Of a stretch of 64,000 nucleotides of DNA, positions 7,730-13,104 are shown in pieces. A program made the position numbers and the translations under genes. Source of the DNA: Arenibacter catalasegens. GTDB taxonomy: Bacteria; Bacteroidota; Bacteroidia; Flavobacteriales; Flavobacteriaceae. Location of the stretch: NCBI RefSeq assembly GCF_002909235.1, contig NZ_PHQQ01000002.1, positions 248,001-312,000 on the forward strand. Direction: 5' to 3'. How positions within the stretch are numbered: the first letter of the stretch is position 1; each line of letters begins with the position of its first letter. Under the pieces are notes generated by a model. It had not been told where the DNA came from. It saw only the letters and a list, made by a program, of their open reading frames with translations, and ran no database searches.

Positions 7730-8899
7730 CTATTCCAGCGCTTGGGATATATCCTCAATAATATCATCTATATGCTCCAATCCTACCGATACCCTGACCA
7801 TACCATCGGTAATACCAGATGCCAGTCTATCCTGGAGAGATAATTTACTATGTGTAGTCGACGCTGGATGGGTAACTATACTTCTAGAATCCCCTAAGTT
7901 TGCGGACAAAGACAACATTTTAATGGCATTAAAGAACTTTTGTCCGGCCTCTACCCCTCCCTTAACCTCAAAAGCCACAACACAACCACCAGCCTTCATC
8001 TGTCTCTTAGCTATTTCATAATTAGGGTGCGATTTTAAAAAGGGGTATTTCACCCAGTTAATCTTCGGGTGCTCTTCTAAAAATTCAGCTAATTTTAACG
8101 CATTATCACAATGTTTATCTACCCTTAGCGCCAGAGTTTCCAAGCTTTTGGACAGTACCCATGCATTAAAAGGTGACAGGGCAGGGCCTGTAATCCTTGA
8201 AAAGCGATACACCTTATCTATTAGAGCTTTGCTCCCAACGGTAATCCCTGCCAACACCCTACCTTGTCCGTCCATTAATTTGGTTCCGGAATGGATTACC
8301 AAATCGGCTCCAAACTTAATGGGCTGTTGTAAATAGGGAGATGCAAAGCAATTATCTATGATATATATTAAATTATGCTTCTTGGCGAATTTACCCAATT
8401 CTTCCAAGTCCAAAACATCCACTCCTGGATTGGTGGGCGATTCCGCATAGATTATTTTGGTGTTAGGGGTCAATAATCCCTCCAATTTATCCAGCTCATC
8501 TATTTTAAAATAGCTCGTGGAAACATTCCATTTAGGAAAATACTGAGTAAACAAACTATGGGTTGACCCAAAAATACTTCTAGCAGAAATAATATGATCT
8601 CCACTTTCCAACAAGGCCGCAAATGTAGAAAACACCGCCGCCATCCCCGACGCAAAGGCAAAACCATCCTCAGCCCCTTCCATCTTACAAACCTTATCTA
8701 TAAACTCGGAGGAATTGGGATTGCTATACCTAGAGTAAATATTACGATCCTTTTCTTCTGCAAACGAGGCACGCATATCCTCTGCATCCTCAAAAATAAA
8801 ACTCGAGGTTAAATACAAGGGGGTGGAATGCTCTAGAAATTGGGTACGTTCTGTCTGGGTTCGTATCGCTTCCGTTTCAAATTTAAAATTCTTCTTCAT
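7730..8899 (-). CDS. metZ: O-succinylhomoserine sulfhydrylase / Cys-Met metabolism PLP enzyme
   Basis: A cystathionine-gamma-synthase-fold PLP enzyme of 389 residues. The Schiff-base lysine is K207 in VIHSGTKLMDGQGR, and the cofactor-contact motifs SRYSNPN, ASGMAAV and ESPTNPG are present. The family uses an acylated homoserine and sulfide to give homocysteine. The sequence looks MetZ-like, yet the acyl donor enzyme encoded nearby is MetX, which commonly makes O-acetylhomoserine, so the preferred ester is uncertain; cystathionine gamma-synthase activity is the alternative. No riboswitch was recognised upstream, unlike for metY and metK. The gene stands alone between the Rrf2 gene and the palindromic repeats. 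Confidence 0.85.
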   Translation of the reverse strand: MKKNFKFETEAIRTQTERTQFLEHSTPLYLTSSFIFEDAEDMRASFAEEKDRNIYSRYSNPNSSEFIDKVCKMEGAEDGFAFASGMAAVFSTFAALLESGDHIISARSIFGSTHSLFTQYFPKWNVSTSYFKIDELDKLEGLLTPNTKIIYAESPTNPGVDVLDLEELGKFAKKHNLIYIIDNCFASPYLQQPIKFGADLVIHSGTKLMDGQGRVLAGITVGSKALIDKVYRFSRITGPALSPFNAWVLSKSLETLALRVDKHCDNALKLAEFLEEHPKINWVKYPFLKSHPNYEIAKRQMKAGGCVVAFEVKGGVEAGQKFFNAIKMLSLSANLGDSRSIVTHPASTTHSKLSLQDRLASGITDGMVRVSVGLEHIDDIIEDISQALE

Positions 8900-9042: not shown

Positions 9043-9190
9043 CGATTTCGACTACGCTCAATCTCCGGCATTCCTCAACGGCTGAGCGGAGTCGAAGCCA
9101 CATCCAAATTCTTTCATTCTAAAATCAGACCCGATTTCGACTACGCTCAATCTCCGGCATTCCTCAGCGGCTGAGCGGAGTCGAAGCCAC
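9043..9190. repeat. Paired palindromic repeat, left copy (units A1 and A2)
   Basis: Two 59-bp units (9043-9101 and 9132-9190) separated by a 30-bp spacer. Each unit has imperfect inverted arms TTCGACTACGCTCA and TGAGCGGAGTCGAA (one mismatch in 14) around a ~21-base centre. The whole 148-bp pair, including the spacer, recurs as a direct repeat at 9564-9711, exactly 521 bp away. The palindromes would form strong hairpins in RNA or single-stranded DNA. Confidence 0.95.
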
Positions 9191-9197
9191 CAATCGA

Positions 9198-9521
9198 TTA
9201 TGGTTTAAACTTCTCCTCTATATAATGTTTAAAGTGGGACTCATTTTTACATTCAGCAAGGCCATTTAATTTAGCTAAATCCCCATTTATCAACACCTCC
9301 TTTTTATTTCGACTCCAACCTTGAATTTGCTTTTCACGATAAAATGCCTTATCAATCCTATCATACTCCTCTACATACATCAACTTAACAGGAAGCCTCT
9401 TTTTTGTATGGTTAGCCCCCTTTCCATCATTGTGTTCCTTTAACCTCTTGTCCAAATCCACCGTACTACCACAATAATAACTTCCATCTGAGCATTCCAA
9501 TATGTACAGGAAACCATTCAC
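9198..9521 (-). CDS. GIY-YIG nuclease family protein
   Basis: A 107-residue single-domain protein. The family motifs are visible: LYI (residues 5-7) and YCG (16-18) stand for GIY and YIG, followed by DLDKRLKEHN with R26 and H30, and the metal-binding glutamate E63 in YREKQIQGW. The order and spacing match the small UPF0213-type nucleases. Downstream SRNKKEVLI completes the core, leaving ~30 less conserved residues. It lies 7 bp from the left palindrome pair and 42 bp from the right one. Most single-domain members have no assigned role; its enclosure in repeats suggests it acts on or spreads them, which is inference. Confidence 0.9.
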   Translation of the reverse strand: MNGFLYILECSDGSYYCGSTVDLDKRLKEHNDGKGANHTKKRLPVKLMYVEEYDRIDKAFYREKQIQGWSRNKKEVLINGDLAKLNGLAECKNESHFKHYIEEKFKP

Positions 9522-9563
9522 CTTTAAAAAATTAAAACTATTCTATCTCAAATAAGCAAATTT

Positions 9564-9711
9564 CGATTTCGACTACGCTCAATCTCCGACTATCCCCGGT
9601 GGCTGAGCGGAGTCGAAGCCACATCCAAATTCTTTCATTCTAAAATCAGACCCGATTTCGACTACGCTCAATCTCCGGCATTCCTCAACGGCTGAGCGGA
9701 GTCGAAGCCAC
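9564..9711. repeat. Paired palindromic repeat, right copy (units A3 and A4)
   Basis: Units 9564-9622 and 9653-9711 with the same 30-bp spacer as the left copy (9623-9652 equals 9102-9131). A4 is identical to A1. A3 differs from the others mainly in its centre (ACTATCCCCGGTGG), while its arms are unchanged. Conservation of arms with a varied centre indicates selection on, or copying of, the palindromic structure. Confidence 0.95.
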
Positions 9712-9717
9712 AAATAC

Positions 9718-12700
9718 CTAGCCCTTTTCTGCTATTCGTAAAATATCGCCAAAAACACCTCTGGCTGTAACTGCCGCACCTGCACCCGCTCCCTGAATAA
9801 CCAATGGATGTTCCCCATACGATTCTGTATAAATTTCAATAATGGAATCGGACCCTTTTATTTGTCCAAGCGCACTCTCTTTGGGAACAGACACTAATTT
9901 AACTTCCAATTTTCCCTTTTCCTTCTGCAGGTCGCCTGATAGATCGCCCACATAACGCAAGACGTGATTTGGTTTTTGTGCTTTCTTTATCCTACTAAAT
10001 TTTTCATCCAAAATATCCAATTGCTCCAGAAAGCTTTTTACTTCGCCACCTTGAAGTGACTCAGGAATTAAATTTTCAATTTGAATATCTGAAAACTCAT
10101 TGCTAAGGTCCAATTCCCTGGCCAAAATCAATAATTTCCTTCCCACGTCATTACCGGATAGGTCCTCCCGAGGATCTGGTTCTGTGTATCCCAGTTCCAT
10201 AGCTTCTTTTAAAATTGTAGAGAACAGGGCATCCTTTTCCGAAAAAGTATTAAAAATATAACTCAAAGACCCAGAGAACACTCCTTTAATTCTTGTAATA
10301 TTCTCACCTGAGAGATGCAACAACCTGATTGTATCTATCAATGGTAATCCAGCACCAACATTGGTCTCATACAAATATTGCTTTTGATTCTTAGCAAGTT
10401 CTTCCCTGAGCAACTGATAATAATCGAAACGCAAGGTATTCGCAATCTTATTGGACGACACCAAATCAAAACCATTGTCCACAAAATCAAAATACGAAGC
10501 TACGAAGTCCTCGTTGGCCGTATTGTCTACCGCAATAAGGTTCTCTAAATGATTGTCCTTTGCAAACTTGAATATATCGTTTAAATTATAAGGCACTGCC
10601 TTGGTTTTCATGGAAGTTCTCCAGTTTTTAGAGATCCCATTTTTATTCAACAAAACCTTCTTAGAATTCGCAACCGCAAAAACGTTGATGTTAATCCCTT
10701 TTCTTTTTTCGATAGTCTTGTTAGACTTAAGCACTTGATCAATGAGGGTACCACCTACATTTCCATGGCCAAATATGGCCAAATTTACTTTTTTACTTAT
10801 GCCAAAAATTTGACCATGGACCACGTTAAGGGCCTTGTGCAGATCCGATTTCTTAACCACTAAACTTACATTCTTGCCCGAAATGGTATTGTTAAACAAC
10901 AATGGAACTACCTGATTCTTAATAAGGGCATTAAAAGGCTTATGAAAAGTGCTCAAATCCTGACCTACAATAGAAATAACGGAGACCTGATCAACCACGG
11001 TAATATTATTGATATCCTGTAGCTTAAAATCGGTTTGAAATTCCTCTTCCAAAGAAGTTTTGGCCAAGTTGGCATTTTTAGCGTCCACCACTAAACCAAT
11101 ACCCCTTTCAGAGGATCCCTGAGAAATAATACTTACACTAATATTATTATTGCCCATTGTTCTAAAGATACGGGCATCTACCCCAACCTTGCCCAATAGA
11201 CCTCGGCCTTCCAAATTAATCAAGGCCATATTCTCTATTACGGACAATGACTTTATACCTTCCTTACTGGTCTTGGCACTTATTAAAGTACCTTCATTAT
11301 CGTTGTTAAAGGTATTTAGGATCCGAAGTGGAATATTCTTTTCTATTAATGGAATAATTGTCTTCGCATGCAGGATGTTGGTGCCAAAATTCGCCAATTC
11401 ATTGGCTTCACTGTAGGAAAGTTCTGAAATTCTTTTTGCCTCTGCCACCAAATCTGGATTAGCCGTAAAAATGCCGTCTACATGAGTATAGTTCTGCAGC
11501 TCCTCTGCATTTAAGTAATTGGCCAATAAAGCGGCCGAGTAATTACTCCCATTTCTACCCAATGTAGTTGTTTCGTTAAGTTCATTGGAGGCAATGAAAC
11601 CAGTAGTCACCATTACGGCATCAAGTTCCAATTTACCGAACTCCCTTTTTACATTTTCTTTGGACAAAGTCTCCAGAACTTTTGCATCACCAAAATTGGA
11701 ATCTGTTTTAATAAGCTGTCTGGAGTCCATAAATTTGGCATTGACCCCTTTCCCTATAAGTAATTTTGTTACCAATTTTGCCGAGAGCAATTCTCCATAT
11801 GCCAATACCTGATCCTTTATTTTAGGACTATAATCCCCTAACAGAGCTACCCCTTCAAACAATTTTACCAATCCCTTAAATTCCTCTGAGAGATTGACAT
11901 TGCCATAGGCATGCTGTTGATATTTCTCAAATAGCTCAAAATCCTCTGCATAATCCAACCCCTTGGCGGCCTTGTTCAACATGGCTTCCAATTCATCAGT
12001 AGCCTTATTCCTAGCGGAGACCACTACCGCTATATTTTCACCATTCGCCACCTTATCGGTAACAATCCGCAAAACACTATCCAGTCCTTCTCCATTAGCC
12101 AAAGACTTGCCGCCGAACTTTAGCACCTTCACCTTTTTAGACCTGCCGTTTCGGTCGAAAATGCCCTTTAACAACTCCTCCATTTGATTGAACTCGATCA
12201 AAAAGGCATCGTGCCCGTGAAGGGAATGAATTTCACCATAGGTTACATTACTATTGGCTTGGGCCAATTTTTTAAAGGTATCCTTATTTTCTTGGGCCGT
12301 AAAAAAAAGATCTGAATCTACTCCAATGATATGGATATTGGTATCGCTATTTTGAAGATTAATAAAGGCTTCCTCCCCTTCCCTATTGATATCAATGGTC
12401 TTTAACAATTGATTCATTAATTTATAGGCAGACAATTGAAAACGCTCTTGTAGCTTCTTACCATGGTGTGTTAACCAACTCTCCACATTGAAGACTTTCA
12501 ACTCCTCATTGGTACTTCTTTTAAAGCGGTCATTAAAAGATTCAGGTGTCCTATAACACAGCATTGCATGCATACGCGCATCATGCACCGGCTGTTTGGA
12601 ATTCACTAAAAACTGTTCCTGTATCTGGCAATTGGCAATTAGCCAGTCCGTAGACTTCCAATCGGACGCTACTGGAATAAGATGTTCCGTTAAATGAGGA

Positions 12701-13104
12701 TCTAAAGCTGCCATCTCCCAAGCTATACCCCCCCCTAAAGAACCGCCTATCAGGGCATAAAGCTTACTTGTTTTTAAAGCCTCCAATCCCAAAAGAAAAA
12801 TTTTGGCAATGTCCTTCGCTACAAAATCCTTATAATTTTCTATAACAAATCCATCATACCCATTCCCTGGAATATTAAAGGAAAGAATAGTGTATTTCTT
12901 AGTATCTATACATTTACCATCCCCGACCAATGTCGTCCACCAACCATTTTCTCCAGCCACATCAGAGTTACCTGTTAGGGCGTGGTTTACCAGTATAATT
13001 GGTGCGGAATGCAAGGGAAGGCCAAAGACTTCGTAAGACAAGTTAATGTCCAATGTTTTGCCGCTATAAGTAATGTATTTGTTTATTGAAATATGATGTA
13101 GCAT
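9718..13104 (-). CDS. Trifunctional fusion: homoserine O-acetyltransferase (MetX) - aspartate kinase - homoserine dehydrogenase
   Basis: 1128 residues in three parts. Residues 1-~318 form a MetX alpha/beta-hydrolase: nucleophile S122 in GGSLGGG, likely acid D265 and histidine H298 (GHDAFL). Residues ~324-770 are aspartate kinase: KFGGKS at 329-334, the TTLGRNGSNYSA motif, then two ACT repeats (about 627-690 and 705-765). Residues ~773-1128 are homoserine dehydrogenase with the NAD(P) motif GHGNVG at 779-784. The protein thus covers aspartate activation, aspartate semialdehyde reduction (asd is not here) and homoserine acylation. No frameshift or internal stop is seen. ThrA-type ACT domains suggest feedback control. 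The gene lies downstream of metY with a hairpin between. Confidence 0.93.
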   Translation of the reverse strand: MLHHISINKYITYSGKTLDINLSYEVFGLPLHSAPIILVNHALTGNSDVAGENGWWTTLVGDGKCIDTKKYTILSFNIPGNGYDGFVIENYKDFVAKDIAKIFLLGLEALKTSKLYALIGGSLGGGIAWEMAALDPHLTEHLIPVASDWKSTDWLIANCQIQEQFLVNSKQPVHDARMHAMLCYRTPESFNDRFKRSTNEELKVFNVESWLTHHGKKLQERFQLSAYKLMNQLLKTIDINREGEEAFINLQNSDTNIHIIGVDSDLFFTAQENKDTFKKLAQANSNVTYGEIHSLHGHDAFLIEFNQMEELLKGIFDRNGRSKKVKVLKFGGKSLANGEGLDSVLRIVTDKVANGENIAVVVSARNKATDELEAMLNKAAKGLDYAEDFELFEKYQQHAYGNVNLSEEFKGLVKLFEGVALLGDYSPKIKDQVLAYGELLSAKLVTKLLIGKGVNAKFMDSRQLIKTDSNFGDAKVLETLSKENVKREFGKLELDAVMVTTGFIASNELNETTTLGRNGSNYSAALLANYLNAEELQNYTHVDGIFTANPDLVAEAKRISELSYSEANELANFGTNILHAKTIIPLIEKNIPLRILNTFNNDNEGTLISAKTSKEGIKSLSVIENMALINLEGRGLLGKVGVDARIFRTMGNNNISVSIISQGSSERGIGLVVDAKNANLAKTSLEEEFQTDFKLQDINNITVVDQVSVISIVGQDLSTFHKPFNALIKNQVVPLLFNNTISGKNVSLVVKKSDLHKALNVVHGQIFGISKKVNLAIFGHGNVGGTLIDQVLKSNKTIEKRKGININVFAVANSKKVLLNKNGISKNWRTSMKTKAVPYNLNDIFKFAKDNHLENLIAVDNTANEDFVASYFDFVDNGFDLVSSNKIANTLRFDYYQLLREELAKNQKQYLYETNVGAGLPLIDTIRLLHLSGENITRIKGVFSGSLSYIFNTFSEKDALFSTILKEAMELGYTEPDPREDLSGNDVGRKLLILARELDLSNEFSDIQIENLIPESLQGGEVKSFLEQLDILDEKFSRIKKAQKPNHVLRYVGDLSGDLQKEKGKLEVKLVSVPKESALGQIKGSDSIIEIYTESYGEHPLVIQGAGAGAAVTARGVFGDILRIAEKG

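Follow-up and report, generated by a model that had tools for sequence, protein, structure and literature searches.

A single-domain GIY-YIG nuclease gene and the palindromes on either side of it, located in the window (the whole stretch of 64,000 nucleotides of an Arenibacter genome that was analysed), probably form a REPtron-like home locus, in which a resident nuclease gene lies between REP-like hairpins of its own. REPs rank among the commonest repeats of bacterial genomes, and a REPtron is a REP transposase gene situated among its REPs; to our knowledge, only the GTAG super-family of REPs had an enzyme so far. Comparison of the loci collected from other genomes showed the branches of the single-domain GIY-YIG family each to be bracketed by a hairpin repeat of their own, an association that may supply one class of bacterial hairpin repeats with the enzyme partner it has long lacked. 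Such branch-specific bracketing names a candidate enzyme both for the CGTC REPs and for another hairpin family, which occurs in many phyla. As the proteins are of approximately 100 residues and are easily purified, the question is directly testable.

The window locus and the metZ-thrA junction

As described in the sequence-only reading of this DNA, four 59-bp palindromic units are arranged in two unit-spacer-unit pairs around the GIY-YIG gene. On one side lie unit 1 (9043..9101, with two inverted heads at 9047-9060 on the plus and 9083-9096 on the minus strand), a 30-bp spacer (9102..9131) with the same sequence as the spacer across the gene, and unit 2 (9132..9190; heads at 9136-9149, plus, and 9172-9185, minus). 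On the other side are unit 3 (9564..9622; heads at 9568-9581, plus, and 9604-9617, minus), the centre of which has diverged, a second 30-bp spacer (9623..9652), and unit 4 (9653..9711; heads at 9657-9670, plus, and 9693-9706, minus), with neither units nor spacers being assigned a strand. The gene between them (9198..9521, minus strand) belongs to clade A and encodes a product of 107 aa from a GTG start. Its distances of 7 bp to unit 2 and 42 bp to unit 3 had been given correctly, as had the end of the element 6 bp from a stop codon, with unit 4 stopping 6 bp before the end of the metX-thrA ORF at 9718. The two pairs had also been called identical, which they are not; a repeat search found them to be 94% alike over 154 nt with a start-to-start distance of 521, and most of the differences, by eye, fall within the centre of unit 3, the divergence of which had been remarked upon.

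Chance is excluded for these palindromes, as the arm TTCGACTNCGCTCA has 37 occurrences in the 5.45-Mb genome and its backwards-read control has none. Folding of the 59-nt unit as DNA gave a value of -13.4 kcal/mol (z -3.9). Outside the element, and conserved as its neighbours, are a gene that we take to encode a metZ-like sulfhydrylase (7730..8899, minus strand), matched in 18/18 genus genomes, and one presumably encoding a MetX-ThrA fusion (9718..13104, minus strand), the C-terminus of which adjoins metZ in all 18; both names follow the sequence-only reading.

The protein of the window matches the GIY-YIG profile PF01541 (E 7.9e-19, 68 bits), with a weak match to TIGR01453 being the only other profile match obtained. 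Residues of catalytic type (Y16, G18, R26, H30, and E63) are invariant across 26 aligned relatives, and the AlphaFold2 model of the protein has a mean pLDDT of 79.5. The closest solved structures by sequence are those of the UPF0213/YhbQ-like PDB entries 1zg2 (E 9e-17) and 1ywl (E 2e-11). When the window gene (genome G000) was compared with its closest orthologue (G008), 17 of the 19 nucleotide changes were found to be synonymous, the split between synonymous and nonsynonymous changes being nearer even in the other orthologue pairs compared. As judged by such substitution counts, the gene between the repeats was shown to stay under purifying selection.

The metZ-thrA junction could be located in 18/18 genus genomes. 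A GIY-YIG gene is present there in six of these, with heads on both sides or nearby, and the site is without the gene in the other 12. Recombination between the pairs had been expected to excise the gene cleanly, a suggestion left unsupported by the gene-less intervals, nine of the 12 keeping decayed palindrome remnants that were recognised by eye. In three of the 18 genomes (G004, G010, and G014), neither element nor remnant was seen, also by eye. The site looks like that of an old resident with vertical inheritance and repeated loss, rather than that of a recent mobile insertion. In branches A, D, E, and F, most of the genus genes occur singly and in syntenic positions. Some GIY-YIG match was found in 17/18 genus genomes, with branch A in only six, and a gene of branch A was found in 10 of 90 family genomes. 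The metZ-thrA interval of G010 and G014 measures 84 bp and holds one GTGGTGCTCC..GGGGCACCA stem-loop, terminator-like by eye, and the orthologue of G005 is a broken frame in two pieces (G005:C34:84832-85145; L065/L080).

Branch-specific hairpins beside GIY-YIG genes

From the window alone, a parallel to REP/RAYT systems with a GIY-YIG enzyme had been proposed, with an association between repeats and genes as its test, and this association proved to be far beyond chance, both in the genus and across phyla. At 26 of the 30 genus GIY-YIG loci of all kinds (a set that counts L065 and L080, the halves of one broken gene, separately), direct copies of a repeat lie on both sides of the gene within 1,500 bp; one of the remaining four has inverted repeats only and three have none. 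A wider set was made up of the best 80 of at least 552 confirmed relatives, which by our own placing represent about a dozen phyla and which include three Arenibacter loci of 89-97% identical relatives. Among these best 80 of at least 552, direct repeats occur on both sides within 400 bp at 38 loci, of which at least two (L132 and L186) look like coding or other repeats and not palindromes; for control ORFs elsewhere in these loci the figure is 12/652 (Fisher p 1e-30). The count falls to 35/77 when the three Arenibacter loci are removed from this best 80, and 42 of the best 80 of at least 552 gave no direct repeat by the 400-bp test.

Branches were assigned from short protein signatures alone, with 21 of 213 rows staying without a branch; the tree excludes eight rows of fewer than 55 residues, and three Arenibacter loci duplicating genus genomes were dropped from the matrix. 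The motif of the branch itself is present at 73/89 loci in A, 6/7 in B, 5/5 in C, 10/10 in D, 4/6 in E, and 7/7 in F, where B and F share one joint motif expression and where these on-diagonal counts are partly circular, the motif expressions and the head expression given below having been written after the sequences were seen. All 36 genus genes assigned to A-F carry the motif of their own branch and one carries that of another branch too, the genus rows of D, E, and F being partly orthologous and so not independent. For branch-A rows outside the genus, the head is present in 67/83. On shuffling of the labels, the observed mutual information was never reached in 5,000 trials. More independent are the test of the published CGTC description and the mismatch test in non-Bacteroidota, both presented below. 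None of the repeats was found at the 10 loci with YhbQ-like genes, and a syntenic GIY-YIG branch (GYFYILSNSTRNLLYAG; L039/L082 on G000:C7 and L081 on G007:C4) has an intact frame and no flanking repeat.

This match between branch and repeat bears on the alternative that GIY-YIG genes land, in the style of homing, in repeats that already exist, with each branch preferring one of them. The enzyme would cut an empty array and repair would copy the gene in, the repeats themselves not being spread by the enzyme. GIY-YIG is a homing endonuclease superfamily (PMC1564403), many genomes have repeats and no gene, and the sister class beside tRNA genes, with its partial tRNA copies (30/40 loci), resembles insertion into a target. 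However, for A, D, E, and F most genus genes are resident singly and in synteny and have not arrived recently, the remnants at sites without the gene have the look of decay, and so strict a match of branch and repeat requires repeats and enzymes to have diversified jointly, such that we consider this alternative unlikely.

The repeat of branch A is composed of a conserved 13-14-nt head (TTCGRC..GCTCA) on a 3-5-bp stem, and it usually occurs as an inverted pair. Using the head expression TTCG[AG][CG]N(2-4)[CGT]CTCA on the loci of the best 80 of at least 552 relatives, 258 heads were found in a nominal 64 kb within 400 bp of the 80 genes, compared to 60 in the 998 kb farther out. Heads are present on both sides at 57 of these best 80 loci, upstream only at eight, downstream only at seven, and on neither side at eight. 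In 31 non-Bacteroidota loci, a word derived from Arenibacter and allowed up to two mismatches occurred 51 times in 19.0 kb near the genes and 16 times in 329 kb far from them. The bases beside the head pair at 4.03 of 5 positions, against a mean of 2.19 when partners were dealt between loci (sd 0.07, maximum 2.45 in 200 shuffles), and 33 distinct perfect 5-bp stems were identified. Such pairing statistics show the branch-A stem to change by compensation, so that selection acts on a short hairpin whose head is fixed and whose stem is free to vary as long as it stays complementary. The 129 neighbouring head pairs are oriented F-R in 58 cases, R-F in 28, F-F in 19, and R-R in 24, and the gene lies between R upstream and F downstream in 32/57 (p 6e-7 against one quarter).

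These features make it very unlikely that the hairpins simply end or regulate the transcript of the nuclease, be it a selfish or a housekeeping gene, and are unrelated to its activity. The hairpins do occur from a few to ~100 bp from both gene ends, and in the 2013 survey REPs are reported mainly downstream of coding regions (PMC3733652). Termination nonetheless needs neither a conserved head with a covarying stem nor inverted pairs (58 F-R of 129), neither direct copies on both sides nor branch-specific repeats, and the control ORFs and YhbQ-like genes are without such hairpins.

The second repeat type of interest is that of branch E. CGTC REPs are described as having a CGTC or TGTC tag, an 8-9-bp stem starting with AT, a loop of 4-5, and a CCA tail, with family 1 being dRS3 of Neisseria (Di Nocera 2013, PMC3733652). 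That survey described them as having no transposase dedicated to them, with no tyrosine transposase gene seen to carry them on its flanks. The branch-E repeat of Arenibacter fits this published description. In a gammaproteobacterial sample of 143 genomes, from the class of a Methylococcaceae bin, 37 matches were obtained in 28 genomes and 30 loci were fetched. CGTC REPs with the strict tag occur on both sides at 17 of these 30 branch-E loci and on either side at 19, 11 loci having none; 63 were counted in 20.4 kb near the genes and eight in 50.6 kb farther away, and the CCA tail is present in most of the printed examples. A looser expression had given 21/30 for either side and 7/92 for branch A, and it was tightened since two matches were without the tag. 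The strict scan placed the repeat on both sides at 4/6 loci in the first branch-E set and at none in A (89), B (7), C (5), D (10), F (7), T (55), or Y (10), with the strict tag found at 3/89 branch-A loci. A tag followed by AYTNC was seen 74 times near B, D, E, and F against 1.8 expected from shuffles, and at background level near A, C, T, and Y (branch A, 7 vs. 5.5 expected). The window repeat, which is of branch A, carries no CGTC-type tag. By the same reasoning as for branch A, the branch-E enzyme would be the dedicated enzyme of the CGTC REPs.

Concerted evolution, copy number, and proposed mechanism

Left and right spacers are identical within each of the three genomes that have both (31/31, 30/30, and 30/30 in G000, G008, and G015). 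Between these genomes the spacers are 74-83% alike (23/31 to 25/30) and the gene is 92-94% alike. On this comparison, the two sides must often recombine or be recopied from each other. Their concerted evolution suggests that recombination takes place at the repeats, and no other observation comes closer to being evidence of activity there; no movement of an element was caught in the genomes compared.

The window genome holds 45 heads, eight at home and 37 away from the gene, which is far below the hundreds of copies usual for REPs. For the genus, the heads that lie away from home number 37, 29, 18, 14, 8, and 3 where the gene is present and 0-14 where it is absent (p 0.09). Among 90 family genomes, the median is 9.5 heads in the 10 with a branch-A gene against 1.0 in the 80 without (p 0.0008), a difference reduced to p 0.12 once four home copies are subtracted, and heads occur in 48 of the 80 family genomes in which no branch-A gene was detected. 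Counts of the branch-D palindromes in the genus do not differ significantly according to whether the genome has the gene (p 0.21), and one gene-less genome has 24. A strong link between presence of the gene and genome-wide copy number was consequently rejected, being weak or absent after removal of the home copies (A and D in the genus, A in the family). Dispersal of the repeats may be old, may be shared between branches with similar repeats, or may come from other processes.

It is highly improbable that these are ordinary REPs moved by a RAYT or an IS200/IS605 transposase with the GIY-YIG gene as a passenger. Y1_Tnp genes are present in 15/18 genus genomes, and one of 20 fetched Y1 loci has a lone branch-A hairpin ~280 bp from the Y1_Tnp gene (L345, G000:C45). 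Yet three genomes (G002, G007, and G017) hold heads with no Y1_Tnp match, G002 even holding the element, none of the 20 fetched Y1 loci (from 48 matches listed) is bracketed by any of the repeats, and the 2013 survey gives no tyrosine transposase gene flanked by CGTC REPs (PMC3733652). A RAYT was thus rejected as the responsible enzyme on account of the Y1_Tnp-free genomes holding heads and the lack of bracketing at the fetched Y1 loci. SLX1, a GIY-YIG enzyme, cuts branched DNA, but that the window protein is a host enzyme which trims or resolves cruciforms, and sits at this site as it tolerates or protects such DNA, is scarcely credible given a patchy distribution (branch A in 6/18 genus and 10/90 family genomes) and one repeat type per branch, both unlike a general housekeeping role.

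In the preferred reading of a REPtron-like home locus, the nuclease would recognise the head in hairpin or cruciform form and would nick or cut it. Repair of the break would copy or exchange repeat units between sites, and such exchange would keep the bracketing copies alike and occasionally seed new copies elsewhere, while the gene itself would pass mostly vertically, like TnpA-REP genes. We infer recognition, cutting, and exchange from the chemistry of the superfamily, the conserved head with its free stem, and the concerted evolution of the two sides. More tentatively, and with somewhat less than an even chance of being correct, it can be proposed that single-domain GIY-YIG nucleases constitute a second, independent class of bacterial REP enzymes, in which each branch would recognise and propagate its own hairpins, CGTC REPs included, and the sister branch would act analogously at tRNA genes. 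If true, this would provide a biological role for a large group of single-domain GIY-YIG proteins annotated by domain alone, and the evolution of bacterial hairpin repeats would have involved no fewer than two unrelated nuclease folds.

Comparison with known systems and a tRNA-linked sister class

In its workings the element resembles a REPtron, yet it does not qualify as one, having no HUH transposase and no GTAG foot. With the REPtrons or REP-RAYT systems (TnpA-REP, with their GTAG REPs and REPINs) it shares a single nuclease gene with palindromic repeats of its own on both sides, an arrangement found at the window locus and its relatives, a repeat family specific to each enzyme type, repeats set in inverted pairs, a gene resident by vertical descent, and a patchy distribution. 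It differs in its enzyme, which is a GIY-YIG protein (PF01541) with no Y1/HUH tyrosine transposase domain (PF01797), the type present in REPtrons. It also differs in its repeat. The GT[A/G]G tetranucleotide is absent from the foot of the window hairpin, which has the head TTCGRC..GCTCA between variable stems instead, and other branches carry a CGTC tag. The likeness to CGTC REPs is closest in branch E, whose loci carry the CGTC/TGTC tag, an 8-bp stem starting with AT, a short loop, and mostly a CCA tail; branches B, D, and F carry the CGTC tag before other stems, and the branch-A repeat of the window differs in being without the tag.

GIY-YIG homing endonucleases of the I-TevI and I-BmoI type belong to the same catalytic superfamily and have a similarly selfish-style distribution. 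In contrast to these, neither an intron nor a DNA-binding domain fused at the C-terminus was seen in the window element (107 aa with one Pfam domain), and its gene is bracketed by repeats and does not lie inside another gene. At metZ-thrA, the three of 18 genus sites that by eye have neither element nor remnant defined no precise target duplication. The UPF0213/YhbQ-like proteins (1zg2 and 1ywl) are the closest structures by sequence, yet none of their genes at the 10 loci has bracketing repeats, nor do they have a tRNA-gene neighbourhood. A search confined to the open-access literature, without subscription journals or preprints, yielded no publication that connects GIY-YIG proteins with REPs; priority is therefore unproven.

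Intergenic mosaics were also observed, in which branch-A heads, branch-D palindromes, and the AT-rich repeat TTTATTGCTAATTGT alternate (L049 on G000:C42, L048 on C36, L050 on C47, and L051 on C59), with several of these occurring near contig ends.

A sister class of GIY-YIG genes, with products of ~80 aa, adjoins tRNA genes. A tRNA gene is present at 36 of 40 such loci and a further full or partial copy of that tRNA at 30 of 40, the tRNAs concerned being those for Pro, Arg, Leu, Val, Asn, Glu, Asp, Lys, and Ser. Loci of this class include L034 (G000:C19), L038/L041 (C25), L040 (C1), L075, L076, L087, L200, L215, and in part L267-L297. On contig C19 of the window genome, three genes of the sister class stand in tandem at intervals of ~322 bp, each following a copy of the 5' part of tRNA-Pro with an extra hairpin.
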